Shown one piece after another: positions 561 to 19,846 of a stretch of DNA of 64,000 nucleotides. Numbering within the stretch: the stretch's first letter is position 1; each line of letters begins with the position of its first letter. A model generated the notes under the pieces. That model was not told the origin of the DNA. It was given only the letters and a program-made list of their open reading frames with translations, and ran no database searches. The stretch spans positions 62,001-126,000 of the forward strand of contig NZ_CP041403.1 of NCBI RefSeq assembly GCF_014844135.1, read 5' to 3'. Origin of the DNA: Arcobacter sp. FWKO B. GTDB taxonomy: Bacteria; Campylobacterota; Campylobacteria; Campylobacterales; Arcobacteraceae. A program made the position numbers and the translations under genes.

Positions 561-1088
561 ATGGCATATTTTCTAGCATCGATTATCTCAATAGTAGCAG
601 CATTTATGATATTGTTTACTAGATATGAAGCTGATGATAGCCAAATAAAAGCAGATTTAGAGCATATGAAAGTTATGTTTAGTATGGTTGATGGATTTGT
701 TAATACTTATATTAATTCTGGTGAAAATATGCAAGATATCAATTTTGAAATTTTGGAAGATAGAGGGATATTATTAAGCAATGCTACAGTAGTGGGTGCT
801 GGTAATAGTGCAGTTATGACATTGCCAAATAGTAATGTTACTTGGCAACTTATTCCAAATAAAAACGACGCAACCTCATATAAAATACTTGTTGATATTA
901 CAAGGAGTAGTTCTTTGATGTCAAAATCTGTCTTCTCAGAAAGTTTTATTGGTAGAGAGTATTGTCAAAAAGCCTTATTTGGCTCCTTTGAAACAAATAC
1001 AAATTCCTACAATGGTACAGACGACTTTGTTAATAGTGGAGGTGGAACAAATAGTGATGGGCTTTTTGTTTGTGTAGTGTTTAAATAA
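561..1088 (+). CDS. pilin-like protein with N-terminal membrane helix (1)
   Basis: 175 aa. Residues about 3-20 form a single hydrophobic helix at the extreme N-terminus, followed at once by a charged helix and a C-terminal beta-type region with two cysteines (YCQKA and VCVVF) that could form the D-region disulfide of a type IV pilin. The typical class III leader (short basic leader, Gly, then Glu at +5) is absent, so it is not a conventional prepilin. First gene of a cluster holding a secretin, platform protein and ATPase, which supports a pilin or pseudopilin role. Function is inferred from architecture and context only. Confidence 0.5.
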   Translation: MAYFLASIISIVAAFMILFTRYEADDSQIKADLEHMKVMFSMVDGFVNTYINSGENMQDINFEILEDRGILLSNATVVGAGNSAVMTLPNSNVTWQLIPNKNDATSYKILVDITRSSSLMSKSVFSESFIGREYCQKALFGSFETNTNSYNGTDDFVNSGGGTNSDGLFVCVVFK

Positions 1089-1158
1089 CTGGTGCGACTA
1101 AAGTCGTTTTTATTTAGGGTGGTGGTAGGTAAAACAAAAATTAAACAAGGAGATAGAT

Positions 1159-1794
1159 ATGCCTCAATTGATAGCTATGATTATAGTAATTGTAGGAGCA
1201 TTAATATATATGTTCCAAACATTTGGTGGTACTGGAGATAAGATAGAAGGTATTGCACAAAAAACGAGTGTAATTACTGAGATAAACAATATTAAAACTG
1301 GTGTTAAAATGGCAGCAAGAACTGGACATGTTGTTGTAAAGAGTGTAGAAAATCAAGATGGTATGCAAGAATTGGGAAAATTACAGTATTTTGCACAACA
1401 AATTAATGACCAACTGAAAGATTCAACTGATAAAAATGCTTATTATGCTATATCATTTGGTAATGGTACTACAGCAGAACCAAATAAAACTATGATAGTT
1501 AGACTTGTACACAATAGAAAAGATTTTATTCCTGGACTTTTTGTGGATTTATCACAAGGTTCATTAGCAACAAATGCTGGGTTTTTGGAAGCACAACTTG
1601 CAAATGATTTAGCAGCAATAGCTAGGGTTGATAGACATGCCACAACAGCTGCTGCTGCAGATGGACAATGGGGAACAACAACTGAAGTAGATAAACGAAT
1701 TCCAAAAGCTACTGATGCTGGAACAAATACAGATACGGACGGTAAGTTTATAATATATTTTACAGATTTTGGTTCAAATGAAGTTGTAAAATAA
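1159..1794 (+). CDS. pilin-like protein with N-terminal membrane helix (2), candidate major subunit
   Basis: 211 aa with a good AAGGAG site. The N-terminus is a 17-residue hydrophobic run beginning directly after MPQ, then a Gly/Thr turn and a long amphipathic helix; the rest is Thr/Ala/Gly/Asp-rich, as in many pilins. No Gly/Glu cleavage motif is seen. It is flanked by a weak hairpin (1095-1106) before it and a good terminator-like hairpin after it, so it may be made at a different level from its neighbours, as expected for a major subunit. It has no cysteine, unlike the preceding pilin-like gene. Confidence 0.5.
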   Translation: MPQLIAMIIVIVGALIYMFQTFGGTGDKIEGIAQKTSVITEINNIKTGVKMAARTGHVVVKSVENQDGMQELGKLQYFAQQINDQLKDSTDKNAYYAISFGNGTTAEPNKTMIVRLVHNRKDFIPGLFVDLSQGSLATNAGFLEAQLANDLAAIARVDRHATTAAAADGQWGTTTEVDKRIPKATDAGTNTDTDGKFIIYFTDFGSNEVVK

Positions 1795-1808
1795 CTTTTA
1801 TTTTTCAT

Positions 1809-1847
1809 AAAGACACTCACTAGGTGTGGGGTGTCTTTATATTTTTT
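1809..1847 (+). terminator. hairpin terminator or attenuator after pilin-like gene 2
   Basis: AAAGACAC (1809-1816) pairs with GTGTCTTT (1831-1838) around a 14-nt loop and is followed by an A/T-rich TATATTTTTT run. It probably ends or attenuates transcription between the two pilin-like genes and the machinery genes. Confidence 0.6.
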
Positions 1848-1945
1848 ACACCTTTGTATAATAAAATAAAAAATTAAAGTAAATATCATTAGTCTTTATT
1901 TAAATGATATTTATTGTAGTTTTTATTAAAATATGGGAGTGTAGT

Positions 1946-2674
1946 TTGTTTGGAAATGTTTGGTTGAGTACTGCTTTTATTGTTAGTGCTATGTTTTTAG
2001 CTGGTGTTAGCTATAAAGCATACAATGATATCCAAACTGCTAGAGATATCCAGCAAAGCTACCACATAATATCTGAAATAAAAGAATTACTAGCAAAACA
2101 ATACAACAAACCAATCCAAGATATAACTAGAGATGAAATCATAGCATTTTTGCCAAGTGGTGGTAGCTGGGAAAAAATATTGTTATTAGATAGAGACCCT
2201 AGTGGTAAACTTGCAAATGATGCACTAGTGGATGAAGATGGAAAGTTTGTTCTTAGTGAAGAGGATAAAATAAGACTATTTGCTCTTCGAGCCAAACTCA
2301 AAAATTTTGATACAACACAAGAGATAAAAGATAACGCAAACAAAACTATTACTTTTGATGTGGCTACAGATAAAATTAATATTCATTACAAAGACAATAT
2401 TATACAAACACAGCTTATGAAAGCTATCGAAATACTTGATATTCACAAGGATGATGGTGGTTTTTCTACGACCTTTGACAAGGTGATAGAAGATTACACC
2501 CCATATGATGCCATATATCAAGATTTAAGGCTTGATGGGGAGAGTGATGAAATATATGAAAATGCAAAAAAACAAAGACAAAAAGAGTATTTCAAAGGAC
2601 AGCTTATCAGTACTTTAGAAAAGAAATTAAATTCAAAAGATATTCTTCTTTATGATAAGCTAAAGGGTTTATAA
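1946..2674 (+). CDS. pilin-like protein with N-terminal membrane helix (3)
   Basis: Start chosen as TTG at 1946: GGGAG at 1935-1939 sits 6 nt before it, whereas the upstream ATG at 1904 has no ribosome site and would add a basic stretch. The 242-aa product starts with a hydrophobic helix (about residues 6-22), then a long charged coiled-coil-like region (IQTARDIQQSYHIISEIKEL). This resembles a minor pilin or pseudopilin stem, again without a G/E leader. Its TAA overlaps the ATG of the next gene (TAATG), so translation is probably coupled. Confidence 0.5.
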   Translation: MFGNVWLSTAFIVSAMFLAGVSYKAYNDIQTARDIQQSYHIISEIKELLAKQYNKPIQDITRDEIIAFLPSGGSWEKILLLDRDPSGKLANDALVDEDGKFVLSEEDKIRLFALRAKLKNFDTTQEIKDNANKTITFDVATDKINIHYKDNIIQTQLMKAIEILDIHKDDGGFSTTFDKVIEDYTPYDAIYQDLRLDGESDEIYENAKKQRQKEYFKGQLISTLEKKLNSKDILLYDKLKGL

Positions 2675-3381
2675 TGAGAGTATTTTTATTGTTAATGTTT
2701 ATTTTATCAACGATATCATATGCTAGCAATAGTGATGAGTTTAAAACTCATCAGACATTAATACAAAAAGTAAAACAAGCCATCGAAGATGAAGAAGCTA
2801 TAGCAAGAGCATATGAAAAATACCTTTTGGAAGAATTTGCAATTACTTCTGATATATCTGACTTACTTACATCATCATATCTTGGCAGTAGCTTTGTAGA
2901 TTTGGATTTAAGTTTTTTTAACACCTTTGTACTATTTCAAAGAGGTGTAAACTACAGATTAAAAAATCATATTAAAGAAAACCTTAGTATTAAAGCACTA
3001 TATGAAAGCGACACTTTTAGAAAAAAAACATTTTATTACAATAATGCAGTATATTTTACTTTAGAGGATGATTTTGCAAAAAATCTTTTTACTTTGATTA
3101 CAAAACAATCATCTAAACTTTTGGAATGTGGCGAAGTTCCAAAAAGAAAGTATTGCCAAAAAGATAACCATATCTATATCTATGATGATGACGCTCAAAC
3201 TGATTTATTAATATATTATCACAAAGACAACTTTAAAATAGGTCCAATAATGATAACCAATAATGCACTTTTGTATGATACAAAAGAGGAGTTTAAATTT
3301 ATCCCAACAGGGGCAGCATTGTATGATATTAATGGAGTTATATATGTAAAGACTCCTGAGTCTATCCAGAGGTTGAAATAA
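2674..3381 (+). CDS. exported protein with shared pilus-cluster N-domain (A)
   Basis: 235 aa with a Sec signal peptide (residues 1-17, ending SYA-S). Residues about 25-85 match a domain also found in the next two genes and in the gene at 12414: a helix with EEAIARAYEKYLLEEF, then a YLGSSF turn. This helix followed by a Tyr/Gly turn recalls the upper part of a pilin helix and first loop. Two cysteines (LECGE, KYCQK) lie close together in the C-terminal half. Overlaps both neighbours by one base. Role unknown; probably periplasmic or surface, possibly a minor subunit. Confidence 0.55.
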   Translation: MRVFLLLMFILSTISYASNSDEFKTHQTLIQKVKQAIEDEEAIARAYEKYLLEEFAITSDISDLLTSSYLGSSFVDLDLSFFNTFVLFQRGVNYRLKNHIKENLSIKALYESDTFRKKTFYYNNAVYFTLEDDFAKNLFTLITKQSSKLLECGEVPKRKYCQKDNHIYIYDDDAQTDLLIYYHKDNFKIGPIMITNNALLYDTKEEFKFIPTGAALYDINGVIYVKTPESIQRLK

Positions 3382-4088
3382 TGAGTAAGTTTTTTGTTGT
3401 TCTATGTATATTGTATATATCATTACCCGCAAATGATAAGTTAGTAGTGACTCAACAAAATGTATTGTACATACAAAATATGATAAAAATTGAAGAAAAT
3501 ATTGCAAAAGCTTTTGAAAAGTTTATATTAAATGAGTTTAAAATTCCAACTTTTAATGAGCTTTTAACAGATGAATATCTCGGTAAGAATTTTTCTGTTT
3601 CAAATAGATTTGGAGAAGAGATATCCTTTAATACAGCTAGTGAGCTAAAAATTAAATATGCAATAAAAACCAATGTAGAACAATATATAAAAGATTTGTA
3701 CAATAGAGATTTATATAGATTTAATACAAGTGTATATGAGGGTAATAGTTTTGCAAATTCATATGTCAAAATAATTTTTGAGTCAAAAGAAGCACAAACA
3801 ATATATAAGATATTGTTAAACGGTGACACGATACAAAAAACTTGTAATGCAACACTGAAAAATACTTATTGCAATCATAATCAAGAATCTATCAGATGGT
3901 ATACAAATGATTCTTATTGGATTGAGTATGATAAAAAAGAGTTTGAAAATTCACATGTGACTATATCTGATAAATCACTAAGAGATAGTACGAGATTAAC
4001 TACTCTTACAACAGGTGTATATATTTATGTAAGAGATGATATCTTACAATTTATCAAAACTCACAATTCTCTTGCAGTAGTGGAGTAA
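3381..4088 (+). CDS. exported protein with shared pilus-cluster N-domain (B)
   Basis: 235 aa, the same length as the preceding gene and clearly a paralogue: signal peptide at residues 1-17, then KIEENIAKAFEKFILNEFKIP and EYLGKNFSVSNRFG. A second shared part has the pattern DLYRFNT near residue 115, matching FRINT and NRVNT in the two giant paralogues. A pair of cysteines (KTCNAT, TYCNH) sits in the same place as in paralogue A. Start ATG overlaps the upstream stop. Likely acts with the other three family members in the same assembly. Confidence 0.55.
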   Translation: MSKFFVVLCILYISLPANDKLVVTQQNVLYIQNMIKIEENIAKAFEKFILNEFKIPTFNELLTDEYLGKNFSVSNRFGEEISFNTASELKIKYAIKTNVEQYIKDLYNRDLYRFNTSVYEGNSFANSYVKIIFESKEAQTIYKILLNGDTIQKTCNATLKNTYCNHNQESIRWYTNDSYWIEYDKKEFENSHVTISDKSLRDSTRLTTLTTGVYIYVRDDILQFIKTHNSLAVVE

Positions 4089-4091
4089 AAA

Positions 4092-6779
4092 ATGAGAGTA
4101 TTTATAACACTTTTATTATGTCTAAGTTTTTCATTTTCATCAAGTGAAAATGTTGCACTAATGAATGATGTAAAAAGTGTCATACAAAAAGAGGAATTTA
4201 TTGCACTTGCTATTAATAATTATATCAAACAAACTGCAAGAATTCCAAAAAAAAGTGATAATACATTAGATTGGGATAAACTTCTAATTGATGGCTATTT
4301 AGGTAAGAATTTTAATAAATACAATCCACTTACAAAAAAGGATATTAGTGTAAAGTTTGATAGTTCTAATAACTGTTATATTCAAGGAGTTATTACATCA
4401 CTTTCTGAGTATAAGCAAGATTACGGATATATGTATCATTTTTATATAAACAAGATTTTCAGAATAAATACTCTTTCACCTCAAAATACGACCAAAGAAG
4501 AGCTTTTAAAAGGTTCGCTTGTAGTTTATCAAGATATTCAAAAACAAATAGTTTCTTTGATAAACCAAGGTGAATATGTAAGACTCAATACACAAAAATG
4601 TCCAACTGGTAATCATTACTATGAGCTAAAAAACAACAAACTCACTTTCAAGCGTTGTATGGGTGATTATTCATTGGAAGTTTATCAAACACCACCTATA
4701 TATCTTGAAGATTGGAATGATTTACAGTTTGTCAAAGCAAAAGTTGGAGATATTGCATATGCAAAGAAAAATGGTCAGTGGTTTGCATATTTTTTCCAAG
4801 GTGATTTGGAAAATGAAAATAAAGCTTCTTGGAGACCAGTAGATGCTGGTAGTGTTCTTACAAGCCAAGACCCTAGTATGAGTATAGAAGATAGAGTTAT
4901 TGCATATATACCTGATACTAAAGATTTAGTTTTAAGAAAATATGGTGGTTGCATGCTTGCAAATGGTGATATATTTTGCTGGGGTAACAATAGCTATAAA
5001 AAAGCTGGTGTACACTCATCGGGGCAAATAGATACTTCTTTATCACCTGATTATGTCAATACTCCTGTAATGTTAAAAGTTCAGATTGATAACACAGAAC
5101 AAAATACAAAAAGATGGTATAACAATCCTTATCGTATCAAATTTGAAAAAATGTCAATGAATAATACAAATGTTTGTGGAATATCACCAATATTTGATTA
5201 TTTTCAAAGTGGTGTATATAAAAAATTCGGTGGCGATTTGTATTGCAATGGCTCTTTACATAGTGATTATTTTGATGATTTGGGTAATATTGGTGCAACA
5301 ACAACTTCAATTTTAAAAAAACATAAATTTTTTGCAACAGGTAAAGAAAATGAGCTAAATGATTCATCAGAAATTTACCTAAAAGATGTGGTAATGGTTG
5401 ATGGCACTATTGCTGTACTTTCTGATGCAGGTATTATTTATACAATAGGCTCAAATGAAAAAGGGGCATTAGGCATAAATAGTATAGATGAAAGTTTTAG
5501 TACCAATACACCTATGAGTATAAATCAAACTAATCAAAGATTTAAAAAAGTATTTGCATTAAGGGATATAAAAGGTTTTGGTGCTATTGATGAGTTTAGT
5601 TACCTTTGGATATGGGGACAAAGAACTGGCAATAATATTATATACCAGCCAGAGCAAGTAAGTTTTGTTAGATTTGATGCAGAGCGTGTATTTGTCAATA
5701 GTAAAGATTTTGTATTGCAAGGATTGGATAAAAAGTTCTATAGAACATATGATAAGTCATCGCTTAAGGCACTAGCTTTTATTCCAAATAGTGCAATAAG
5801 TGTCTCCATATACGATAGAGGAATTAGTGAGTATTATTTATATGTAAGTGAAGATATGCAAGTTTTTGGTACAGAGGGTCTGATAACTTGCAAACAATCA
5901 AACCAAACAAATTGTATTAGTGCTGATAAAAATTTGTTCGATAAAGCATTTAATGTATTGAATAATAAAACAAATACTATTAACAATAAAGATTATGCAA
6001 ATTTTTCAAATGTATCTATATTTGAATCGTCCATGTTGCTATCATCTTCAGCTCATTCATTTGGACCAGATGGCATATACCTTGAAGATTTTAATACAAG
6101 AAATTTTAGTGGTTGGAGTAGAACAGGAACTGGTGGCTATGATTATCTTGGAAGATTTAATAGAAACAATATTTCACCAAATGGTTCAGAACAAGTAAGC
6201 AAAACATTTGATTTTGGGTTGGCAAATGCCAACAAAAATATAACAATAGAGTTTGATTGGTATGTGTATTCAATAGCATTACCAAACACTCCAGTCAATG
6301 CCTATATCAATGGAACTTTAGTAATAAGTGATAGTTTTTACACATTAATTGGTGGTGAGGTGCAAGTAGGTTATAGCTATGATACAAAGCTAGATGCTCA
6401 AGGTAGAGTAAAAATAGGTTTTGGGGCAAATAATTTAGGGATCACGACTTTGAATTATTTTGGAGTAGATAATATCAAGATTACAAGAACACAAAGTGCT
6501 GATGTAGTTACTGACAGTAAACTATATGTATGTGCAATGACTGGTTTTGGAAGTGGTTCCCAGATGTATTGCTGGGGAAGTGTTGCAAGGGCATTACCAA
6601 TATTGAGTACATCAGTTTATGATGTAAACAAAATATCTAGTATAAATAAACTTTTTATCACACAAAACAATGACTTAAGTGACTCGATGTCTTATGATGA
6701 ATTTAATGATAATGGAACATTGTTTTTAAAGTATCCATTATATATAGGGGGATTTGACTATGAATTTTATTTTAAATAA
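4092..6779 (+). CDS. large exported RCC1-like propeller protein with jelly-roll insert
   Basis: 895 aa. Signal peptide (1-17), then the shared N-domain (KEEFIALAINNYIK ... GYLGKNF ... NPLTKKDI; FRINT). From about residue 280 come RCC1/alpha-tubulin-suppressor-like repeats: GGCMLANGDIFCWGNNSYK, VLSDAGIIYTIGSNEKGALG, EFSYLWIWGQ. About residues 655-805 form a lectin/LamG-like beta-sandwich (LEDFNTRNFSGW, ITIEFDWYVYS, INGTLVI, FGVDNIKI), followed by a last propeller blade (MYCWGS). The C-terminus is FLKYPLYIGGFDYEFYFK, shared with the gene at 12414. Probably a tip adhesin or secreted substrate of the pilus-like machine; the ligand is unknown. Confidence 0.6.
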   Translation: MRVFITLLLCLSFSFSSSENVALMNDVKSVIQKEEFIALAINNYIKQTARIPKKSDNTLDWDKLLIDGYLGKNFNKYNPLTKKDISVKFDSSNNCYIQGVITSLSEYKQDYGYMYHFYINKIFRINTLSPQNTTKEELLKGSLVVYQDIQKQIVSLINQGEYVRLNTQKCPTGNHYYELKNNKLTFKRCMGDYSLEVYQTPPIYLEDWNDLQFVKAKVGDIAYAKKNGQWFAYFFQGDLENENKASWRPVDAGSVLTSQDPSMSIEDRVIAYIPDTKDLVLRKYGGCMLANGDIFCWGNNSYKKAGVHSSGQIDTSLSPDYVNTPVMLKVQIDNTEQNTKRWYNNPYRIKFEKMSMNNTNVCGISPIFDYFQSGVYKKFGGDLYCNGSLHSDYFDDLGNIGATTTSILKKHKFFATGKENELNDSSEIYLKDVVMVDGTIAVLSDAGIIYTIGSNEKGALGINSIDESFSTNTPMSINQTNQRFKKVFALRDIKGFGAIDEFSYLWIWGQRTGNNIIYQPEQVSFVRFDAERVFVNSKDFVLQGLDKKFYRTYDKSSLKALAFIPNSAISVSIYDRGISEYYLYVSEDMQVFGTEGLITCKQSNQTNCISADKNLFDKAFNVLNNKTNTINNKDYANFSNVSIFESSMLLSSSAHSFGPDGIYLEDFNTRNFSGWSRTGTGGYDYLGRFNRNNISPNGSEQVSKTFDFGLANANKNITIEFDWYVYSIALPNTPVNAYINGTLVISDSFYTLIGGEVQVGYSYDTKLDAQGRVKIGFGANNLGITTLNYFGVDNIKITRTQSADVVTDSKLYVCAMTGFGSGSQMYCWGSVARALPILSTSVYDVNKISSINKLFITQNNDLSDSMSYDEFNDNGTLFLKYPLYIGGFDYEFYFK

Positions 6780-6788
6780 GGGAAAAAA

Positions 6789-8498
6789 ATGGTAAGGAAA
6801 ATATATCTTTTTGCATGTGCCGTTATTGTATTAAGTGGTTGTGGGGCGACGAGTTATCATGATGTAATGATAGAAAATGCCAAAAAAACTATCAATCAAG
6901 AAAGTTATACAAATATTAAAGATGCATATACGGAATCTTTGGTTACAGAAGTTTCAACCAAGCAAGAGTTTATAAGTATAATTGATGATAAGTCTTTGGG
7001 CGATGTATTAAAAGAACTAGAAAGAATTGATGATAATTATTACTTTTTAAGAAGTAGTGATATCCTGATACCAAGAAGTAGGATAAAACTTTATACAATG
7101 GATGATATAAACAACTATTTAAGAGCTACATTGGATAAAGAATTAATTGTAGAAAAATCAGGTAAATTAAGCATTGTAAGAATTGTAAATTCAAGTGAAG
7201 TTAAAAAACAATCAATTGAGCATATGCCTTTTAGACTACAAGGTGAAATTGCTGTAGAAGAGCTGATTAAACTTATTACTGCTCAAACAGGATATGGTGT
7301 ATTTATTGGGCAATATATGGAAGATATAAATAGATTTAAAAGCAGTATTATTACAATAAATTCAACATATTTAATAGATGCCCTAAATGCTCTAGGGCAT
7401 ACAAAAAATGTTTATGTGGATATTGATTATGATAAAGAAGTTATAGCTATAAATAGATATAAAGATACAGTAATAGAGCTAAATATCCCACTACTAAATC
7501 TAAAAACATCAAGTGAAACATCTACAAAAGAGACTTCAGGTGAAAGTAAGGTAGAAAATCTTTCTCAAATAGTCCTATTTGATGAGATTGATAAAATGGT
7601 TAAAAATATAATCTCTAATGATAAAGTTTCTACATATCACATAGATAAATCAAGTGGTTTGATATTCTTAAAAACCACAAAAAGTGTAGAAAATGCTGTA
7701 AGAACACTTGCAAAAGCTTACGAGATGAGTTTTGCTAGAGAAGCTACTATAGATTTTGAAAGGATAGAGATAGTTTTAAATAAAAATAGAGAATATGGTA
7801 TTAGCTCTATTGCAAAAAGTCAAGCTGCTACAACAACTACTACCATAGAATCAACTTTAACATCTTATGATAAAGAATCAACTCTATCTTCAGCTGTAAA
7901 TCTAGGTACTGCTGGAAGTATTACAAGTGGTGGAAATCTTGCATTTTCTGACCAATCTATTTCAAGACTTATTTCTATAGCAGCAAAAGCAAATAATGAA
8001 ATAGGAAAGATTTTAAACTATAGTAAAAATACAATAGTCTTAAAAAACAATATCCCAACGGTTCAATCAACAAGTCAAAACACAGACTATATAGAAAAAA
8101 TAGAAACAACCGTAGTTGATACAGCAGTATCAACTGAAGCAACAGTAAATACAATAAAAGATGGTACATCAATCACTGCTATGGCAAAAATTTCAAGAGA
8201 TAAAATATTTTTAAATATTACACCAAATATAAAAAAACTTATAAGAATAGGTGAAGCAAAAGTAGGGGACTCTATTATACAACTACCGCAGTACAATGAT
8301 CAAAGTTACAATATTTCAAGAGAAGTTAGGGTAGGAGAAACTGCAATAGTGGGTTCTATTATCGTGCATGATGATGCAAAAGAGTATCAAGGAATATTGC
8401 CTTTAGAAGGGTTTGCAATAGGTGGAACTGATTCTAAGTCTTATGTTAGACGAGAAATTGTATATGTTGTAACACTTAGAAATATAAAAGGGTTTTAA
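6789..8498 (+). CDS. secretin lipoprotein (PilN/GspD-like outer-membrane channel)
   Basis: 569 aa. A lipobox LSGCG at residues 16-20 marks a lipoprotein, as in type IVb PilN secretins. The first half holds short alpha/beta modules (N-domains, e.g. ISIIDDKSLGDVLKEL). The C-terminal half has secretin features: Thr/Ser-rich gate region, NNIPTVQSTSQ with a VETT-like strand, DGTSITAMAKISRDKIFLNITPNIKKL and the final VREIVYVVTLRN strand. It would form the outer-membrane pore for the cluster. Located 10 nt after the propeller gene and 3 nt before the GspF-like gene, so one operon. Confidence 0.75.
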   Translation: MVRKIYLFACAVIVLSGCGATSYHDVMIENAKKTINQESYTNIKDAYTESLVTEVSTKQEFISIIDDKSLGDVLKELERIDDNYYFLRSSDILIPRSRIKLYTMDDINNYLRATLDKELIVEKSGKLSIVRIVNSSEVKKQSIEHMPFRLQGEIAVEELIKLITAQTGYGVFIGQYMEDINRFKSSIITINSTYLIDALNALGHTKNVYVDIDYDKEVIAINRYKDTVIELNIPLLNLKTSSETSTKETSGESKVENLSQIVLFDEIDKMVKNIISNDKVSTYHIDKSSGLIFLKTTKSVENAVRTLAKAYEMSFAREATIDFERIEIVLNKNREYGISSIAKSQAATTTTTIESTLTSYDKESTLSSAVNLGTAGSITSGGNLAFSDQSISRLISIAAKANNEIGKILNYSKNTIVLKNNIPTVQSTSQNTDYIEKIETTVVDTAVSTEATVNTIKDGTSITAMAKISRDKIFLNITPNIKKLIRIGEAKVGDSIIQLPQYNDQSYNISREVRVGETAIVGSIIVHDDAKEYQGILPLEGFAIGGTDSKSYVRREIVYVVTLRNIKGF

Positions 8499-8500
8499 TT

Positions 8501-9517
8501 ATGAGTATGTTTGCTGATCCGTATGAGCAGTTTTTGTTGGATTATCTTGTAACAAAACTTGAAAATGGATCAAATACAAGAAAAGCGTTACTTTTGTATA
8601 AAGAACAAATTACAAAAGAAACTAAGTTTAAAAAAAGGCTTGAAGCAGCTATAAAAGATATGGAGATAGGAAAACACAAACTTGAGGCAATCTTACATAA
8701 ACATGGTTTTTTAAGTGCATTTCAATATAGTTTGGTAGTCAATAGTACCAATACAATAGATGGATTAAGGCTTGTATTATCTTTTCAAAAGGCTAGTTCA
8801 AATCTATTGCCTAAGATGATAAATCCTATTTATGTCCCTATGTCTATTATTATATTTACTTTTTATGGTTTGATTGTTTACCTTGGTTTGTTAGATGCTG
8901 AAGTTGCGCAACTTAAAAAAATAAATCCTGATGTTGTGCAGTTCTTGGGAATCCCTGGATATTTTACATATGAAGTTGCATACTCTGGACTTTTTATATC
9001 TATATTTATCACTGCATTTATGTTCTTTGGGTATTTGTATTCAGAAAAATATAAACCAGCTTGGCTTTATAAGGTATTTGAAACTCAGGCTTTTGCTGAT
9101 GGTAGATTTATGTTTAGGATACTTCATGGTATGCTAAGTGCTGGTATATCATTTCATAAAACATCTTTGATTTTATCAAAAGACTATTTTAAAGTAGGAT
9201 TAAGACCTTTTTTCGCTGAACTTGCTGAGTTGATACACAAAAATAAAAAACTTTTTCTTGCTTTTGAGAAGTATCATTTTCCAACGATAATAACAGCTGA
9301 TATTAAGCTATCAGAGTTAAGTCAAGTAAGCTATCCTGCTGTGACAAAGGCAATTTATGAAACATGCGATACTATGTATGAAAAAAACATCAACTATATG
9401 GTAATGCAGTGGCGATTTATGTTTTGGTTGATTGCAATGCTTGTAACTGTTGTAATTGGTTCAGACATTATCAATTTAGTTATTAGTACATTTACTTTTA
9501 AAACATTATACCAATAA
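8501..9517 (+). CDS. GspF/PilC-like inner-membrane platform protein
   Basis: 338 aa. Three membrane segments are visible (about residues 106-127, 163-183 and 303-328), with two cytoplasmic domains arranged as in T2SSF proteins: one before the first helix and a second (FMFRILHGMLSAGISFHKT) before the last. This is the rotating platform that contacts the ATPase in type II secretion and type IV pili. The repeat signatures are weak, as in type IVb PilR. Lies between the secretin and the ATPase genes. Confidence 0.7.
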   Translation: MSMFADPYEQFLLDYLVTKLENGSNTRKALLLYKEQITKETKFKKRLEAAIKDMEIGKHKLEAILHKHGFLSAFQYSLVVNSTNTIDGLRLVLSFQKASSNLLPKMINPIYVPMSIIIFTFYGLIVYLGLLDAEVAQLKKINPDVVQFLGIPGYFTYEVAYSGLFISIFITAFMFFGYLYSEKYKPAWLYKVFETQAFADGRFMFRILHGMLSAGISFHKTSLILSKDYFKVGLRPFFAELAELIHKNKKLFLAFEKYHFPTIITADIKLSELSQVSYPAVTKAIYETCDTMYEKNINYMVMQWRFMFWLIAMLVTVVIGSDIINLVISTFTFKTLYQ

Positions 9518-9529
9518 AAAAGATGCAGT

Positions 9530-11185
9530 ATGATAAGAAAAATATTTAATAGAAACTACAATTCAGTTTTTTTTGATATCAATAAGTTAAAGAATATCAA
9601 TTTTAAAGATATGGCTGAACAACAAAAAAAACAAATAATAAAACTATTTTCTAAGGATGAAAATAGTGATATAAGTTTGAGTTTTTTGATAGAAGAAGCG
9701 ATAAAAGAAAAATACAATCTAAAAGGTGGATATGGCGATCTTTTATCAAATGAAGAACAATATGCAGATTTTGTTAGAAGTCTTGGTTATGAGTATTATG
9801 CTACATATACCGAGCTATCAAAACATTATCAAGATACATCATCTCAACTTGATGAGAAAAAACTTGAATTTTGTGCTTCTATGTATATTATCACTCTAGA
9901 AGATAAAAAAACAAAAAACAAAGTACTTGGTATCAGGGATGTTGTAAATCTTGATTTTGAGATATTAAGTAAGTTCTATTTTACAAAAGTTGTTGTGCTT
10001 GGTGAGGGGATTTTATCATCGGTATTTGGTGAAGATAGAGAGATTGTTTTTGGGTCACATAATGACTTGGAAAATGATGAGGAGATAAATAAGTATTTTG
10101 ATAAGATGATGGGACAAGCCATTTTGCTAAGAGCTTCTGATATACATATCCAAAAAACAAGTAGATCAGCAACTTTATGGTTTAGAATAGATGGTATAAA
10201 AGTTGAAATGGGAACGATGCCAATAGCTCTTGCAAAAACTTTAAAAAGAAGACTTGTGACGATGGCTGATCAGGAAGATTCTGATTATGAAAGTATTAAT
10301 GGTATGATAAACTATGAATATGGTAAAAAAACTATCAAATTCAGACTTGGTCTAATCAATTCAAAAATGAATTTTTCTTTGGTTATGAGAATGATAGGTG
10401 GACGAGGTGTTGTGTCACATAATCTTAGAGGTCTAAATTATCCAGAAGAAACAGTAAATATTTTGGATAATCTAACCAAATATGCAAATGGTATGATATT
10501 GATTACTGGGCAAGTTGGTTCAGGTAAAACTCATCTTATGTATGCACTTTTACAAAAACTTGCAAAACAAAAACAATATGTAGTTACTATTGAAGACCCA
10601 GTTGAGTATGTGGATGAGTCATTTTTTCAAATAGATTTATCAGAATTTGCAAGTGCAAGTGAAGAGTTTAAATATGGTTATCCTGAAGCTGTAGTTGATA
10701 TATTAAGACAAGATTCTAATATAATATTAATTGGTGAGACAAGAGAGCCAGCAACAGCTTCTCAGCTTATCAATGCATCAAACCTAGGGCAACTTGTATT
10801 TTCAACGATGCATACCAACTCTGCACCTGCAACAGTTTCTAGGATGACAAGTTCTCTTGGGATCAATGAAGGGGATATTGTCGATAATCTAAGAGGAATA
10901 GTATCTCAAAGATTAGTAAGAAAACTATGTGAACACTGTAAAGTTCCTGATGGAGAGGGTGGATATAAAAAAGTAGGTTGTGGTGAATGTAGTAATACAG
11001 GATTTAAAGATAGGGTACCAATTGCTGAAGTAGTGAGATTTAAAATAGGATATGGTGGAGATTTTAGTAATCCAGCAGAATATATGACTGTAGAAAAAGC
11101 TTCAATGGCTCAATATCACGCAGGGCTTATTACAAGAGAAGATGCACTAGCAATTGTTAGAGGGGAAGAAGTATGGTACGATTAG
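9530..11185 (+). CDS. GspE/PilB-like secretion ATPase
   Basis: 551 aa. Walker A GQVGSGKTH near residue 326, Asp box EDPVEY near 354, Walker B region IILIGETREP near 399, His box TMHTNSAPATVSRM near 426. A four-cysteine zinc site follows (CEHC near 467 and CGEC near 484), typical of assembly-type PilB/GspE/PilQ ATPases. The Walker B/Arg region reads GETREPATA where the family usually has GEIRDxETA, a divergent spelling. The first 180 residues are not a recognisable GspE N-domain. It powers the platform protein encoded just upstream. Confidence 0.82.
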   Translation: MIRKIFNRNYNSVFFDINKLKNINFKDMAEQQKKQIIKLFSKDENSDISLSFLIEEAIKEKYNLKGGYGDLLSNEEQYADFVRSLGYEYYATYTELSKHYQDTSSQLDEKKLEFCASMYIITLEDKKTKNKVLGIRDVVNLDFEILSKFYFTKVVVLGEGILSSVFGEDREIVFGSHNDLENDEEINKYFDKMMGQAILLRASDIHIQKTSRSATLWFRIDGIKVEMGTMPIALAKTLKRRLVTMADQEDSDYESINGMINYEYGKKTIKFRLGLINSKMNFSLVMRMIGGRGVVSHNLRGLNYPEETVNILDNLTKYANGMILITGQVGSGKTHLMYALLQKLAKQKQYVVTIEDPVEYVDESFFQIDLSEFASASEEFKYGYPEAVVDILRQDSNIILIGETREPATASQLINASNLGQLVFSTMHTNSAPATVSRMTSSLGINEGDIVDNLRGIVSQRLVRKLCEHCKVPDGEGGYKKVGCGECSNTGFKDRVPIAEVVRFKIGYGGDFSNPAEYMTVEKASMAQYHAGLITREDALAIVRGEEVWYD

Positions 11186-11928
11186 TAATTACCGATTTTG
11201 GTTCAAGGGAAGCTAGTGAGACATTTTATAGAAATGATGAGTTTGATACATTTGAATATCTTATAACCTATAGTGCATTTAAAAAACATAGTGTTTATTT
11301 ATCAAAGTACTATATAAATAACAGTGTATATTCTTTAAATTTATTATCAAAATATTATCTTGAAAAAAACGAGTTCTTGATATATATAAATGAAGAAGAG
11401 TATATCATCCTATTTAACCACAAAACGGTATATAGTGCTAAAATCAATCAACACTTTATAACTGATGACATAATCAAATCAGTTCTTATTACAAAACATA
11501 TCATTTTATTATCTGGAGCAATGGGACTTAAAAAAGTGTACTATGTGATAGATGGAAAATATAAGTATGCTATTGAAAATATTTTAAAATATAATACTTT
11601 AGATGACAATAAAGATGTTGTTTTAAAACCTCTTGGAAAGATTAAAAATCTTGTAAAGCCATTAAACGAGCTAAATAGGACAAAACTTCACTATTTGAAG
11701 TTGGGATATGTAATATCTTTGGTTGTAATATTGGGATGGTTTGGGCTTTTTGGACTCAATATGGCAAGTGATGCACTTACAAACGACGAATATTTAGCTA
11801 AGCTTAAATCTGAAGTAGATTTTGAAAACCAAGTATTGCAAAGACAGCAAAATATTTTAAATATAGAAAAGAAAAAACTAGATGAATTAATAGGGTGCAT
11901 TAGTAATAATAATGAGGTACAAAGATGA
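11173..11928 (+). CDS. bitopic assembly protein (GspL/PilM-N-like role)
   Basis: 251 aa, overlapping the ATPase gene by 13 nt. A cytoplasmic alpha/beta domain of about 175 residues is followed by one membrane helix (about residues 178-198) and a short periplasmic coiled coil. The layout matches GspL or a PilM-PilN fusion, the partners that anchor the ATPase to the membrane, but sequence motifs are too weak to name it. It overlaps the next gene by 4 nt (ATGA). Confidence 0.45.
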   Translation: MVRLVITDFGSREASETFYRNDEFDTFEYLITYSAFKKHSVYLSKYYINNSVYSLNLLSKYYLEKNEFLIYINEEEYIILFNHKTVYSAKINQHFITDDIIKSVLITKHIILLSGAMGLKKVYYVIDGKYKYAIENILKYNTLDDNKDVVLKPLGKIKNLVKPLNELNRTKLHYLKLGYVISLVVILGWFGLFGLNMASDALTNDEYLAKLKSEVDFENQVLQRQQNILNIEKKKLDELIGCISNNNEVQR

Positions 11929-12410
11929 TTGGCATAAGTAATAAACAAATAGCAACTATTACAAAATATGCAGTTATGATAGCAGCTTTTTATATTGTAA
12001 GTTTTATATTTGTACAAGGGTTTAAATATATTAAGTATATGAAAGAAGAAAATAGTTTAAAAAGTGAATTAAACTTAAAACTGCAAGAGTCCCAAAATAT
12101 AAAAATGGAAATTCAAATTATACAAGACAAGCTAGCTAATGTACAAAACAGCTATATTTCACAAGAAGAATTAGAAGAAAGAGTAATAGCAATATTTGAA
12201 AGAATGTCTGTATTTGATTTTCATTTGAGATATATTGGTGCTACAAAGCTTTGTATAGATAGATATGTTTTAATGGTTCAGCTTAGTGCAAGAAGTGAAG
12301 AAGGACTTAAGGCTGCTGAAGGAATCTTATCATATTTGGGTCAAACTCAAAAAAGTCAAGATAGTGATGTGATATATTATATTGACTATATATCTTCTAT
12401 GCGGGAGTAA
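11925..12410 (+). CDS. bitopic assembly protein (GspM/PilO-like role)
   Basis: 161 aa. One N-terminal membrane helix (about residues 13-31), then a coiled coil (ENSLKSELNLKLQESQNIKM) and a small C-terminal alpha/beta domain with the strand VLMVQLSARS and helix EEGLKAAEGILSYL. This is the plan of GspM/PilO. It probably pairs with the preceding bitopic protein across the inner membrane. Identification is by topology and position only. Confidence 0.45.
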   Translation: MIGISNKQIATITKYAVMIAAFYIVSFIFVQGFKYIKYMKEENSLKSELNLKLQESQNIKMEIQIIQDKLANVQNSYISQEELEERVIAIFERMSVFDFHLRYIGATKLCIDRYVLMVQLSARSEEGLKAAEGILSYLGQTQKSQDSDVIYYIDYISSMRE

Positions 12411-12413
12411 ATT

Positions 12414-14582
12414 ATGCTATATAAAAAGATATGTGTTTTAATATGTTTTACTTTTAGTTTGTTTGCAAGTGATTTATATGTAGATAATATTGAGCTTGCA
12501 AAAGCAAAAAAACTTGTTCAAAAAGAGGAACAAATAGCACTTGCTTATAAAAAATATATTTTAAAATATGGTGCAAAACCAACTATTGATAATCTAATAT
12601 CTAATGGCTTTTTGCCTCAAGGTTTTAGTAAAATTAATCCTTTTGGCAAAGAAATGAAGATTTCTACTACCACACATACAATTGAAGATGGTCTTCCAGT
12701 TTCACTTAGAATGAAAGCTCATATATATGATTATTATTATGCCAATATAAATAGAGTTAATACTAAAGCTCCAATAAGCATAAAAAATAATTATACACAA
12801 ATGGTACTATCTACAAAAGAAGAATATATCATAAGTATGAAAAATGAAAATAAGCTTACAAGTGTAAAGTCTGAAGCTAGAAATAAATACTATTTAGATG
12901 ATAAAGGTGTTTTAAATTGGTATGACAATGATGGCAAATATGTGTACTCATATGATAAAAATTTATTAATAGATGATATGTTTGATACTAGTGGAAATAT
13001 AAAAACAGCTATATATAATCTTTTGGAAACAAATAAAGCTTTATATGCTGGACAAATAATATATAATCTAAAAGATAATGTGGCACAAAAACACCTTAAT
13101 ATTGGTGGAGAAGGTAAAAAAATAGTTAAAATTGGTGGTTCTCAAAAAGATATTGGTAAAACTATTATACAATTTACCAGAAGAGCTGGAGGTATGATTG
13201 TTAATGGAGATATCTATACTTGGGGAAATAATGCAAATAAAATAACAGGTATAGAAAAAAATACATATACAGGCTCTGGGGGAAGTAATAGATATCCTGT
13301 AATTAACTCTTTAGTAAGGGCTAAGGTAAAAACATATGACAATGCAATAGATAGTAGAAATTATTTTTCATCACCATTGCGTCCTAAGTTTGTAGATTTT
13401 TTTGCTACAGTATATCATGGAACTTGTGGTGTAGCTACAGATGGTGCAATATATTGTGGCGGAAGTACAGGTGCTGAGACAACAAATTTATTTACAAATA
13501 TCAATAAAGATGGAAGTAGTGCAGAGATGCTATATAAAAGCTCTTTTTTTGATGGAAGTACAGGTAAAAAAGCTACAAAAATAATGGCAAATAATCAAAT
13601 ATGGTTAATTTTAGCAAATACAAGTATAGAACCAATTGATGGCAGTTATAAAAATGGTCAAATATGGAGATGGGGAAGAGATTTTGCTGGTTTTTCAGGA
13701 GATAGTAAAAACACTACTTATAAATATGATAATACTGGTAATCCAACAGAGTTGATAGTTACTTCTGGTGGTACGAAGGTATTATTTAAAGACTTAACAT
13801 ATCTTTTGACTATAGGATATAGAAAAATGGGAGCTTTATCCAATGAAGGAGATGTTTGGATATGGGGGCTTGATGATTATTATACACAAAACTGCACTCA
13901 AACAATAGGTGGGAAGAGTGTTAATTTATGTATACCATATAAGGTGTCTTCTAATATTGCATTTAGTAGTTTAAAAGGTGGATTGCAAGGCTTTGTTGCA
14001 AAAGGTGTAGATGGAAACTTTTATAAAATATCACAAAAATGGGGTGAACTTCCAAAAGTAGAATCTTTGACAGATGCAATCAGAAATAGTGGTGATGATA
14101 ATGAAATATTAGCCGTTGATTTATCTAGTAAACTAAGTGGCACAAGTTTGATTGAAAATGCTGGTATAGTATGGGTAAATTCAAAGAATGAATTAAGAGG
14201 TGATTATTTTACTGCTTCAAATGTAAATGATACATTGTTTAAAAAGGCTATTGAAACTATCAAATGGAAAAATATAAAAGTTATAGAAGATGATAACGGG
14301 ATGTGCGGTATAGATATATATAATCAGATGTATTGTTGGGGAATTGTATCATATACGAGATCAGGAACTAGTACAACAGATTATATAGGTAATACATTTA
14401 TGTTACCTGTATTTAATACAAATTTATATGATTTAGACAAAGATTTTTTGGTGGCTGAGGGTGGCAGAAATGGTCATTTGACACCTATAAGCTCTGGTGA
14501 TTGGACTACTGGTGGTGGGACATTTTTTCTAAAATATCCTACTTATATAGGTGGTTTTAATTATGAATTTATATTTAAATAA
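12414..14582 (+). CDS. large exported RCC1-like propeller protein
   Basis: 722 aa. Signal peptide (1-18, ending LFAS), the shared N-domain (VQKEEQIALAYKKYILKYG, SNGFLPQGFSKINPFG, INRVNT), then RCC1-like blades: MIVNGDIYTWGNNANKI, GVATDGAIYCGGST, NGQIWRWGRDF, LSNEGDVWIWGLDD, IDIYNQMYCWGIV. The C-terminus FLKYPTYIGGFNYEFIFK is almost identical to that of the propeller at 4092. It lacks the jelly-roll insert of that paralogue. Probably a second tip or effector module for the same machine. Confidence 0.6.
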   Translation: MLYKKICVLICFTFSLFASDLYVDNIELAKAKKLVQKEEQIALAYKKYILKYGAKPTIDNLISNGFLPQGFSKINPFGKEMKISTTTHTIEDGLPVSLRMKAHIYDYYYANINRVNTKAPISIKNNYTQMVLSTKEEYIISMKNENKLTSVKSEARNKYYLDDKGVLNWYDNDGKYVYSYDKNLLIDDMFDTSGNIKTAIYNLLETNKALYAGQIIYNLKDNVAQKHLNIGGEGKKIVKIGGSQKDIGKTIIQFTRRAGGMIVNGDIYTWGNNANKITGIEKNTYTGSGGSNRYPVINSLVRAKVKTYDNAIDSRNYFSSPLRPKFVDFFATVYHGTCGVATDGAIYCGGSTGAETTNLFTNINKDGSSAEMLYKSSFFDGSTGKKATKIMANNQIWLILANTSIEPIDGSYKNGQIWRWGRDFAGFSGDSKNTTYKYDNTGNPTELIVTSGGTKVLFKDLTYLLTIGYRKMGALSNEGDVWIWGLDDYYTQNCTQTIGGKSVNLCIPYKVSSNIAFSSLKGGLQGFVAKGVDGNFYKISQKWGELPKVESLTDAIRNSGDDNEILAVDLSSKLSGTSLIENAGIVWVNSKNELRGDYFTASNVNDTLFKKAIETIKWKNIKVIEDDNGMCGIDIYNQMYCWGIVSYTRSGTSTTDYIGNTFMLPVFNTNLYDLDKDFLVAEGGRNGHLTPISSGDWTTGGGTFFLKYPTYIGGFNYEFIFK

Positions 14583-14607
14583 TAATATTAAAAAAAGGAA
14601 AAGAAAT

Positions 14608-15606
14608 ATGAAAAAATTAAGTTTTGTTGTTGGTTTGCTGGTAGCTGTTAATATATATGCCCAAGATAAATTGGATATCTTAGATAAACAGTCTCAAGAG
14701 TTTTTCAAGGCAATTACTGGATTAGAAAAAGATTATCTTGAAGCACAAATGAAAAACATTTCTATTAGTGGTAGAAGTCAAGGTAGTATGCCATCTGCAC
14801 CTACAAGATCAAATCAAGATGTATATGTTCCACAGGGATATTCAGAAGGTGGAGTTGTTCTTAGTCAAGAAGAATATATCAGAAATACATTTAATAATGA
14901 AAATGAATTAGCAAGAATCAAAACTGATTTTGCAAGAATTACAACTTTTAAGGACTTAAAAATAAAAAGTATGTACTCTTTTAATGGTCAAGATTATGCA
15001 GTATTGTATCTTGATGATGGCTCATCTGCACAAAAGATAAATGATGAAAATACTTTTCTTATAGAAGGTAGATATAAAAAAGGAGATATGATTTTGGGTC
15101 ATAAGGTAGTATCTCTTAATACAAGAACAAAAAAGATAGAGTTGTATAAAGAACTAGATTCTGAGTATGGGTACTATATTTATCTATCTAACTATGGAGT
15201 TGGTGTGAGTGATTTGAAAAAAAATGAAAAACCAAAACAAACAGTAGCTTCAAATAATACTCAAAATACAAAAAATCAACAACCTAAAACTTCAGAGCCT
15301 AGTGCTATCCAAAAAGTTTTTGATGAAGCAGATATAAAAACAACATCTACACAACAATCAAACTGCTTATATAAAGTAAATGTAAAAAGTTTAAATGTAA
15401 GAAATCAAACATCGCCAAATGCAACAATATTAAGAATATTAAGACAAAATGATAAATTCAGTATAAGTAAGACACAAGGAGACTGGGTACTGATTGATAC
15501 AATCCATAAGCATATATCAGGTGATATTATGGATGTAAAAGATCAAAACAACTGGGTAAATATTGTAAATAATAATGCTGATTTAGAAGATGATTGCAAG
15601 GAGTAA
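14608..15606 (+). CDS. periplasmic SH3-domain protein
   Basis: 332 aa. Start chosen at ATG 14608, with AAGGAA 7 nt upstream and an immediate signal peptide (MKKLSFVVGLLVAVNIYA); an earlier ATG at 14551 lies inside the previous gene. The middle holds a small beta domain (SFNGQDYAVLYLDDGS) like those in PilP/T4P alignment proteins. After a Gln/Asn/Lys-rich linker a bacterial SH3 domain follows (VKSLNVRNQTSPNATILRIL, GDWVLI, about residues 255-300). It may bind peptidoglycan or bridge the platform and secretin. C-terminal end overlaps the next frame. Confidence 0.5.
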   Translation: MKKLSFVVGLLVAVNIYAQDKLDILDKQSQEFFKAITGLEKDYLEAQMKNISISGRSQGSMPSAPTRSNQDVYVPQGYSEGGVVLSQEEYIRNTFNNENELARIKTDFARITTFKDLKIKSMYSFNGQDYAVLYLDDGSSAQKINDENTFLIEGRYKKGDMILGHKVVSLNTRTKKIELYKELDSEYGYYIYLSNYGVGVSDLKKNEKPKQTVASNNTQNTKNQQPKTSEPSAIQKVFDEADIKTTSTQQSNCLYKVNVKSLNVRNQTSPNATILRILRQNDKFSISKTQGDWVLIDTIHKHISGDIMDVKDQNNWVNIVNNNADLEDDCKE

Positions 15607-15610
15607 TGAC

Positions 15611-16633
15611 TTGAGTTTTGAACAATATAAAATAAAAATTGATGCATCATTTGACAATATCAAAAGTGAGTTTGATGGAATAGAGTATTCTTTTACACAG
15701 CTTTTTGATATCCAGAGTGTTTTTTCAAGTGATGATAGAGGTAAGATAAAATTAAGTAAAACAACATTTAATACAACTCATACTGATATACAAAATAAGA
15801 TTCTAATGATAAACAAAGAGTTGCAACGGTGCCTAGATATCGTACAGAATTATTTTGAAAAAACTCTACAAAATAATAAAATTAATAAAAGTGTTAATAT
15901 AATTGATGGTACAACTGAAAATAAAAAAGTACTATCAATGCTGATACAAGAAAAAAATGGTAAATCTATATCAAAAGAGTTAAATAATATTTTGATATTA
16001 AAAGATAAAATAGTAAATTTACAATTTTTAATCAGCTTATTTGATACTTCATTTTCATATGCACAAATTAGTAAAATGACATTAGAGGAGCTTATCAATA
16101 GTGTATTTATTTTTGAATTTATAGATACATGCTCAATTCTGTACAAAAACTTTAATGAGTTTAAATTTTATATTGAAAATTTTTATAGTGATTTTAGAAC
16201 CAATGACTATATTGAAGATATTGAAATTTTACTTGAGTTACATAAAAGAAATTTGGAACTTTATTCATATCAAGATATTAAATATAAAATAATCTTGGAG
16301 TACAACATAAATATTGGTGATGTAAAACTAAAGTTATTAAATAAATATTTTTTGCAACAAGCTATATCATTATTGATAGAACAATCTTGTCTTGACCTTA
16401 TAAAAAAAGAGTTAAAAAAAGGTAAGTTTCATAAGCTGATAGAAATAAATATTTTAAAAGTTAAAAAAAATATTAGAATCATCATCAAGAACAATGGATT
16501 TGACACAAAAGAACTAATTGGCAACGAGTATATTAATCTTATACTGTGTGATAATATCGCTAACAATATAGATATTATTCTTGAGGCTGATACTATTGAA
16601 AATGAAGGTATGAACTATATTTTAAAACTCTAA
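15611..16633 (+). CDS. protein of unknown function with degenerate histidine-kinase-like ATPase end
   Basis: 340 aa. TTG at 15611 is preferred: AAGGAG at 15598-15603 is 7 nt upstream, while the upstream in-frame ATG at 15590 precedes the site. No membrane segment. The C-terminal 95 residues resemble a GHKL ATPase fold in outline (YFLQQAISLLIEQS as an N-box-like helix; IRIIIKNNGFD as a DxG-like strand), but catalytic Asn and Gly residues are lost, so it is not expected to be active. Last gene of the pilus-like cluster, followed by a strong terminator; perhaps regulatory. Confidence 0.4.
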   Translation: MSFEQYKIKIDASFDNIKSEFDGIEYSFTQLFDIQSVFSSDDRGKIKLSKTTFNTTHTDIQNKILMINKELQRCLDIVQNYFEKTLQNNKINKSVNIIDGTTENKKVLSMLIQEKNGKSISKELNNILILKDKIVNLQFLISLFDTSFSYAQISKMTLEELINSVFIFEFIDTCSILYKNFNEFKFYIENFYSDFRTNDYIEDIEILLELHKRNLELYSYQDIKYKIILEYNINIGDVKLKLLNKYFLQQAISLLIEQSCLDLIKKELKKGKFHKLIEINILKVKKNIRIIIKNNGFDTKELIGNEYINLILCDNIANNIDIILEADTIENEGMNYILKL

Positions 16634-16727: not shown

Positions 16728-17675
<948 letters not shown>

Positions 17676-17793
17676 TTAGTTTATAGTTGATAGTTTATAG
17701 TTGATAGTTTGTAGAGAAGAAAAATATAAAATTCAAAAAACTTAGTTACTAAGTACCTCATTGACTTAGTAGCTTTAAAACAAGGAGAAAAAG
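17676..17793 (+). repeat. nifH-orf121 spacer with tandem repeats and AGT-rich leader
   Basis: Three imperfect copies of TTTATAGTTGATAG follow the nifH stop directly (17680-17715). The second half (17741-17780) reads ACTTAGTTACTAAGTACCTC and TTGACTTAGTAGCTTT before an AAGGAG site, a pattern shared with the leaders of nifD and the ferredoxin at 52490. No gene seen. Confidence 0.6.
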
Positions 17794-18159
17794 ATGTTTG
17801 TATGTGGATACCACTTTCCTGCTAGTATGGGAAATGATGTAAGTTTTGATAAAGTTGTTGAAAAAGTAACAGAAGGTGCTGGTGATTTATCAGGAATCAG
17901 CGGTGTTGTTGTGACAGGTGAGACTCCAAAAGGTGAAATCGTTGAGAGCTTTACTGTAGCACCAGGAACATTTATGTTTACTGCACTTGTAGATTATTAC
18001 AAAAAATCAGATGTACCAGAAAAAGATGGTTTCAAAATGATTTATTATACAAATAAATACCAAATTAGTGAAGTATCAAAAACTATAGATGGTGATGTAA
18101 CAAAACCATTCTGTAGAAAATTTGATGATATGAATCTATACAGAATCAAAGTAGCGTAA
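17794..18159 (+). CDS. unknown 121-aa protein between nifH and nifD
   Basis: 121 aa, strong AAGGAG site, well-used frame. Short beta-rich sequence (SGISGVVVTGETPKGEIVESF; MIYYTNKYQISEV) with no signal peptide, no membrane segment and two cysteines (CGYHF at the start, FCRKF near residue 109). It is not a P-II/NifI protein, AnfG/VnfG or any nif accessory protein I can name. Its position inside the nifHDK operon, with its own leader like that of nifD, implies a role in nitrogenase maturation, protection or regulation. Confidence 0.75.
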   Translation: MFVCGYHFPASMGNDVSFDKVVEKVTEGAGDLSGISGVVVTGETPKGEIVESFTVAPGTFMFTALVDYYKKSDVPEKDGFKMIYYTNKYQISEVSKTIDGDVTKPFCRKFDDMNLYRIKVA

Positions 18160-18177
18160 AAATTAAATATTTGTGAT

Positions 18178-18262
18178 ACTTTTTGACAATTTCTTCGTTG
18201 AGATTTTCGTCATTTACTACAGTAAATTTCCTCAATCTCGCCTTGAACTTGTCTAAAAATTA
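18178..18262 (+). repeat. palindromic intergenic repeat with TTTACTACAGTAAA core (copy 1)
   Basis: The core CGTCATTTACTACAGTAAA (18208-18226) is identical to one at 36811-36829. Outer arms GAGATT/AATCTC and TTGACAA/TTGTCTAA let it fold into a long hairpin. No gene seen; it lies between the 121-aa gene and nifD. Confidence 0.65.
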
Positions 18263-18296
18263 TCTACAAAATTGAATTTTAGCTTAAATAGCGGTG

Positions 18297-18372
18297 AGAA
18301 ACTAGAAAACTGAGAACTTGAGTATTTTACTCAGTCACTCAGTCACTCAGAAGCTCAGTAACTTTTAAAAGG
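18297..18372 (+). repeat. AGT-rich stuttering leader before nifD
   Basis: ACTAGAAAACTGAGAACTTG and then repeated CAGTCACT units (ACTCAGTCACTCAGTCACTC) lead into AAGCTCAGTAACTTTTAAAAGGAG, the nifD ribosome site. CTCAGTAACTTT directly before the ribosome site recurs before the ferredoxin at 52490. Confidence 0.6.
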
Positions 18373-18381
18373 AGTAAACAG

Positions 18382-19845: not shown

Positions 19846-19846
19846 T

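Follow-up and report, generated by a model that had tools for sequence, protein, structure and literature searches.

PilA and PilB, the two pilin-like proteins encoded at the head of a type IV filament gene cluster in Arcobacter sp. FWKO B, are translated without a class III leader. The cluster (561–16,633, all on one strand) spans about 16 kb, is opened by pilA, pilB, and a third gene, and encodes a complete machine (secretin, platform, and ATPase). As the best explanation, we propose that it probably builds a type IV filament, whose nearest known kinds are MSHA or T4b-like systems with a lipoprotein secretin, and that PilA and PilB are made directly in the mature form, bypassing PilD. The window, which is the whole 64-kb stretch of DNA analyzed here, corresponds to positions 62,001–126,000 of a complete genome of 2.24 Mb.

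Gene content of the cluster

The genes are listed below in window coordinates, with the basis of each assignment in parentheses.

561..1088, +, PilA, leaderless pilin, 175 aa (24-member alignment; AF2; homology to PilB and to the prepilin of sister locus L103)
1159..1794, +, PilB, leaderless pilin, 211 aa (ortholog alignment; AF2; homology to PilA)
1946..2674, +, third protein, one N-terminal transmembrane helix, 242 aa, TTG start (ortholog alignment)
2674..3381, +, S1, Sec-exported protein (N-domain common with 3381, 4092, and 12414 by hhalign)
3381..4088, +, S2, Sec-exported, paralogue of S1 (hhalign)
4092..6779, +, large Sec-exported protein with RCC1-like propeller repeats (RCC1-like, 1.1e-8; RCC1, 3.1e-6)
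6789..8498, +, lipoprotein secretin, MshL-like (TIGR02519, E 2.9e-14, under cut-off; LSGC lipobox)
8501..9517, +, inner-membrane platform protein, T2SSF/PilC-like (T2SSF in 15/15 orthologs, best 8.9e-6; tree)
9530..11185, +, extension ATPase, T2SSE/PilB-like (T2SSE, 7.7e-66; PilB structures in PDB, 1.9e-40)
11173..11928, +, bitopic protein, GspL/PilM-PilN position (position and anatomy only; order conserved)
11925..12410, +, bitopic protein, GspM/PilO position (position and anatomy only; order conserved)
12414..14582, +, second large Sec-exported protein, N-domain paralogue of 4092 (hhalign; propeller-like repeats by eye)
14608..15606, +, exported protein, C-terminal part resembling SH3 by eye (synteny with relatives)
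15590..16633, +, kinase-like ATPase domain protein, domain judged by eye (synteny with relatives)

C135 and C171 of PilA are conserved as a late Cys pair. The secretin scores 52.8 bits against the MshL family, below the curated cut-off of 250.2 by which MSHA would be recognized. The product of 11173..11928 consists of a cytoplasmic domain and one transmembrane segment near residue 180. The four Sec-exported proteins (2674, 3381, 4092, and 12414) have a common N-terminal domain, with pairwise hhalign probabilities of 97.9–99.9. By eye this domain is similar to a truncated pilin, an assignment that was dropped for want of hhalign support. The propeller-bearing Sec-exported proteins are candidates for, and most likely are, tip or surface adhesins. 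The product of 4092..6779 also has a jelly-roll-like stretch beside its RCC1-like repeats.

Directly downstream of the pilus cluster, at 16761–21394, lie nifH-, nifD-, and nifK-like genes as judged by eye. Two small overlapping genes at 23800–24436 on the minus strand resemble, again by eye, a HigB/HigA-type toxin–antitoxin pair.

Distribution of the cluster

The cluster is present in 25 of the 104 genomes of Arcobacteraceae, named relatives carrying it being found in Aliarcobacter, Arcobacter, and Poseidonibacter, and its gene order is kept across relatives. Because of this conservation in the family, leaderless starts arising by chance are excluded. Across the phylum, a PilB profile found 13 of the 397 genomes sampled, all within Arcobacteraceae. 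The same profile gave no match among plasmid records, and spread by plasmid was rejected on this ground. We regard the leaderless cluster as real and conserved, with the filament as a prediction from its genes. The element that appears to be new is that all recognizable pilins of a complete machine are leaderless; a literature search, with most subscription journals outside its coverage, found no description of an Arcobacteraceae system of such kind.

Apparent decay of the locus was observed in two single genomes. The platform gene of G015 is interrupted by about 1.3 kb (L054:7287–9619), and the ATPase of G006 is split across two frames (G006:C1:98929–100498). An Arcobacteraceae-type cluster also occurs in a metagenome record titled Helicobacter pylori PMSS1 (L037 / L058), a label that looks wrong. 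In L058 (15154–16275, minus strand), a second leaderless PilA-type pilin of 373 aa is encoded in divergent orientation and has a C-terminal extension of tandem repeats.

N-termini of PilA and PilB

The products of pilA (561–1088) and pilB (1159–1794) start MAYFLASIISIVAAFMILF and MPQLIAMIIVIVGALIYMF, respectively. For both genes, no start codon lies between the preceding stop and the listed ATG, and an in-frame TGA is found at 555–557, just ahead of pilA. The PilA orthologs start MPYLVSSIIAIV, MAY.., or MGY.., and the PilB orthologs start MPQLIAMIIVVVGAMIYMFQTFGGTGDKI with a nearly invariant N-terminus. All full-length orthologs (22 of pilA and 22 of pilB) share the same starting residue. Ribosome sites of the AAGG/AGGA type, located about 6–12 nt upstream of the ortholog starts, are conserved, unlike the sequence farther upstream. 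In several genomes, the upstream frame is open for 1–4 codons only, without a start codon: the open codons number one (L039 and L054), two (L059), or three (L035, L052, and L058) ahead of pilA, and one (L052) or three (L035 and L057) ahead of pilB. Since the start is conserved and the open upstream codons are too few, none of them being a start, a missed leader is excluded, and both an overlooked upstream start and a frameshifted leader were rejected for PilA and PilB. An earlier, sequence-only reading of the window had claimed that the class III leader is absent and had pointed to upstream starts adding a leader as the way in which this could fail. In several genomes the frames close within 1–4 codons, and the absence is true for PilA and PilB.

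Neither protein has a hydrophilic leader ending in Gly or Ala, nor does either have a Glu at mature position 5, no E being found within the first 20 residues. Glu5 is common but not universal in pilins and is often missing in archaeal pilins (PMC4471445). At residue 2, all PilB have Pro (23/23), and all PilA have Pro, Ala, or Gly (24/24), with Pro in most; for two PilA with a TTG start the second codon was used, and the counts are shared by descent and hence not independent.

Structural models and homology to canonical prepilins

PilA and PilB are homologous over the full length, with their first residues aligned to each other (hhalign probability 96.5, E 7e-10). Their AF2 models (mean pLDDT 87.5 and 85.6, respectively) contain a long helix at residues 2–52 in PilA, broken at 22–26, and at residues 2–54 in PilB. 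In both, a short helix comes next, then strands, another helix, and one last strand, forming an alpha/beta head. As expected of pilins, a hydrophobic N-terminal helix of 20–25 residues leads into a helix of about 53 residues in both models. A helix length of 52–54 residues fits a mature pilin, not a precursor. Foldseek searches of both models against the PDB gave no significant match, the T4b pilin PilS (1q5f) appearing only at E 0.84. PDB sequence-profile searches for the fold also gave nothing significant, and PilA and PilB score below the cut-off of every Pfam and NCBIfam pilin family. Of the pilin fold that the sequence-only reading proposed to look for, both models have the long helix and a head that may be of the pilin type, with no significant PDB match.

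Profile comparison with the prepilins of sister clusters (described below) gave clearer relations. With the PilA profile, the canonical prepilin of L103 (MRKA↓ISMVEVILVIIIGAF) scores E 2.3e-5; with the joint profile of PilA and PilB, it scores E 8.8e-6 and the second prepilin of L124 scores E 5.7e-4, where the lowest E among 108 unrelated control proteins of the same genome was 4.9e-3 (PilA) and 1.1e-2 (joint). The remaining six sister prepilins tested against these profiles do not stand out, and a combined sister profile matches the leaderless pair at E 6e-4, which is suggestive only. The L103 match falls in the pilin body and is therefore not a by-product of the hydrophobic helix. These comparisons argue with moderate strength that PilA and PilB are homologous to canonical prepilins, and describing the two as pilin-like is supported.

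The third gene

The ATG at 1904 is not conserved; the conserved start is the TTG at 1946 behind GGGAG, from which the protein starts MFGNVWLSTAFIVSAMF... The orthologs begin at the codon matching TTG 1946 (MFG/MLG-NIWLSSALIV), and ATG 1904 was rejected as the start on this basis. Among 22 orthologs, residue 3 is G in 16, A in 3, and S in 3, and Asn is usually next after it; the protein lacks both a positive charge and a Glu at +5. The earlier claim that none of the three proteins has a Gly before the helix or a Glu at +5 is correct in both respects for PilA and PilB, and for the third protein in respect of Glu only. In profile comparison with PilA and PilB, its E is 0.27 or worse against both, giving no support for homology. 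The third protein is only loosely pilin-like; this description, originally given to all three products, is upheld by homology, models, and the L103 match for the first two and not for the third. In the leader-bearing sister clusters, a bitopic protein with a helix near its N-terminus (L124:2982–4196 and L125:4079–5077, both minus strand) is possibly the counterpart of the third gene.

Sister clusters with canonical leaders

A platform search found related clusters in other Campylobacterales (L103, L125, L126, and L127) and in the same family (L104 and L124). One or two class III prepilins are encoded in five of the six loci; the remaining locus is a 3.5-kb contig. The leaders in L103, L104, L124, L125, and L126 are MRKA↓ISMVE, MKKG↓ITLIE, MKKG↓FSLVE, MRKG↓MTLIE, and MKKRLRGG↓FTSLE, respectively. 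These five clusters are like the leaderless one in having a related platform, and L103, L104, L124, and L125 are also alike in a lipoprotein-type secretin, an ATPase, and genes at the GspL/GspM positions, with a homologous pilin in at least L103. They differ in that their pilins have canonical leaders, whereas PilA and PilB have none. An ORF scan for class III prepilins found none in 24 leaderless loci (the window cluster and 23 orthologous loci), and the same scan did recover those encoded by the five sister loci and by the T4a region of this genome.

Platform proteins of the leaderless and sister clusters fall together in their tree, apart from the PilC and GspF of the genome (100/99), and each kind lies on its own side (84/65 for the sister side). 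In the ATPase tree, which has very long branches, the leaderless and sister machines do not come together; owing to these branches and the disagreement with the platform tree, this tree was rejected as support for the sister relation. Our preferred reading of the pattern is that the leader was lost in the Arcobacteraceae lineage, while the sister lineages of this machine have kept it. We infer this direction, loss on the leaderless branch being the simplest reading because class III leaders are the general rule across the superfamily (PMC10191384, PMC4471445). One genome, G052, carries both a leaderless cluster (L059) and a leader-bearing sister cluster (L124).

Prepilin peptidases in the genome

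No A24 prepilin peptidase is encoded in the 64-kb window, and a genome search found two A24 genes elsewhere, at 1,120,876 and 1,510,052. The statement that there is no peptidase gene accordingly applies to the locus and the window, but not to the genome. A24 peptidases are found in all 25 cluster carriers and in 101 of the 104 family genomes; peptidase copy number follows no pattern and was discarded as a marker of the locus. Six canonical prepilin-like N-termini, such as MKKG↓FTLIE and MNKQNG↓FTVLEV, are present elsewhere in the genome. From these sequences and the two peptidases, the organism appears to use normal prepilin processing for its other systems. By analogy, a locus that merely lacks a peptidase is ordinary, as MSHA loci also have no peptidase gene and probably borrow one (PMC6668835).

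Comparison with known systems

MSHA is similar to the cluster in its MshL-kind secretin, extension ATPase, and platform, as well as in the absence of a peptidase gene at any MSH locus (PMC6668835). However, MSH pilins have class III leaders and presumably depend on a borrowed peptidase, whereas PilA and PilB have no leader, and no MSHA-specific genes were recognized in the cluster. Type IVb pili (TcpA/PilS-like) share the compact locus, the helix with an alpha/beta head, and, with PilA, the late Cys pair. Their prepilins have a leader, Gly-1, and Glu5, none of which is found in PilA or PilB, and the Foldseek similarity is not significant.

Flp2 (Bd0118) of Bdellovibrio bacteriovorus, the gene for which is required for predation, has a pilin-type sequence right after the initiator Met and no Gly-1 (PMC5430801). 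It differs in belonging to the Flp family and a Tad system, in keeping Glu-Tyr, and in adjoining a canonical Flp1, and TadV is absent from the Bdellovibrio genome. Flp2 is a partial precedent for leaderless pilins. PilX1 and PilX2 of Saccharibacteria TM7x are pilus proteins without a predicted PilD signal, one of them with an RCC1 propeller (PMC12206443). They are minor pilins in a system whose major pilins have leaders, and the propellers of the present cluster are on separate Sec-exported proteins.

Discussion

The main rival to direct synthesis of mature PilA and PilB is that the two are leaderless minor, tip, or initiation subunits, the main pilin being a canonical, PilD-processed one encoded elsewhere in the genome. 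Canonical prepilin-like sequences are indeed present there, and both precedents point the same way: the trimmed Flp2 of Bdellovibrio adjoins canonical Flp1 (PMC5430801), and the Saccharibacteria proteins lacking a PilD signal are PilX1 and PilX2 (PMC12206443). However, none of the 24 leaderless loci contains a class III prepilin, whereas in the sister clusters the prepilins are encoded at the locus itself, and the PilB helix is almost invariant while its body is variable, as expected of a major subunit. We consider this rival unlikely. It is improbable that PilA and PilB are bitopic parts of the assembly platform, PilN/PilO-like or otherwise, instead of filament subunits. Each is a single N-terminal transmembrane protein with no significant fold match, as such parts might be, but the PilN/PilO-type positions are already filled by the genes at 11173 and 11925, PilA matches a true class III prepilin, and the helix starts at the N-terminus and extends to residue 52–54.

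Cleavage could also occur in forms other than the canonical one. PilD acting in trans might cut a very short leader, after MA or MG in some PilA and after MLG in the third protein. A24 peptidases occur in every carrier, gene content being compatible with processing in trans, known peptidases accept some noncanonical signals (PMC4471445), and residue 3 of the third protein is G, A, or S in 22/22. Against this, all PilB and most PilA have Pro at residue 2 while PilD cuts after Gly or Ala, there is neither a positive charge ahead of the helix nor Glu5, and published leaders have 6–26 residues (PMC4471445), so that we rate such cutting as slightly more improbable still than a platform role. An internal cut of the N-terminal helix by another protease, e.g., a rhomboid acting at the conserved GG of PilB (residues 23–24), has in its favor the nearly invariant FGGTGD that directly follows the hydrophobic stretch. 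PilA lacks this motif (it has RYEADDS), and a cut there would take away the assembly helix. Pilins commonly have helix-breaking residues around position 22, which also counts against an internal cut, and we find it very hard to credit. The sequence-only reading had left a choice between insertion without cleavage and a different processing step; insertion without PilD cleavage fits better, and no trace of another processing enzyme was found.

In the direct synthesis of mature pilins that we favor, the N-terminal helix of PilA and PilB would insert in the inner membrane with the N-terminus facing the cytoplasm. The Met would be taken off by deformylase and methionine aminopeptidase, which would thereby fill the role that PilD has elsewhere; because residue 2 is always Pro, Ala, or Gly, the Met is probably removed by methionine aminopeptidase. 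The ATPase and platform would pull the subunits out of the membrane and into a filament passing through the secretin with no prepilin peptidase step, and the filament would assemble without the salt bridge between Glu5 and the amine. A wider reading, which we hold tentatively and with somewhat less than even confidence, is that every cluster-encoded pilin is born mature, the leader and the peptidase step having been lost together in one lineage with the aminopeptidase giving the mature N-terminus. The N-terminus would then usually be proline, which is a secondary amine, as is the first residue of ordinary pilins once N-methylated.

Textbooks define a type IV pilin by its class III leader, and genome searches rely on that leader; a leaderless filament system is therefore invisible to standard annotation. 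If assembly runs without PilD, neither leader removal nor Glu5 would be needed to pull pilins from the membrane, and the cluster would be a natural system to test what processing is for. The genome with both versions of the cluster, G052, would make a comparison within one cell possible.
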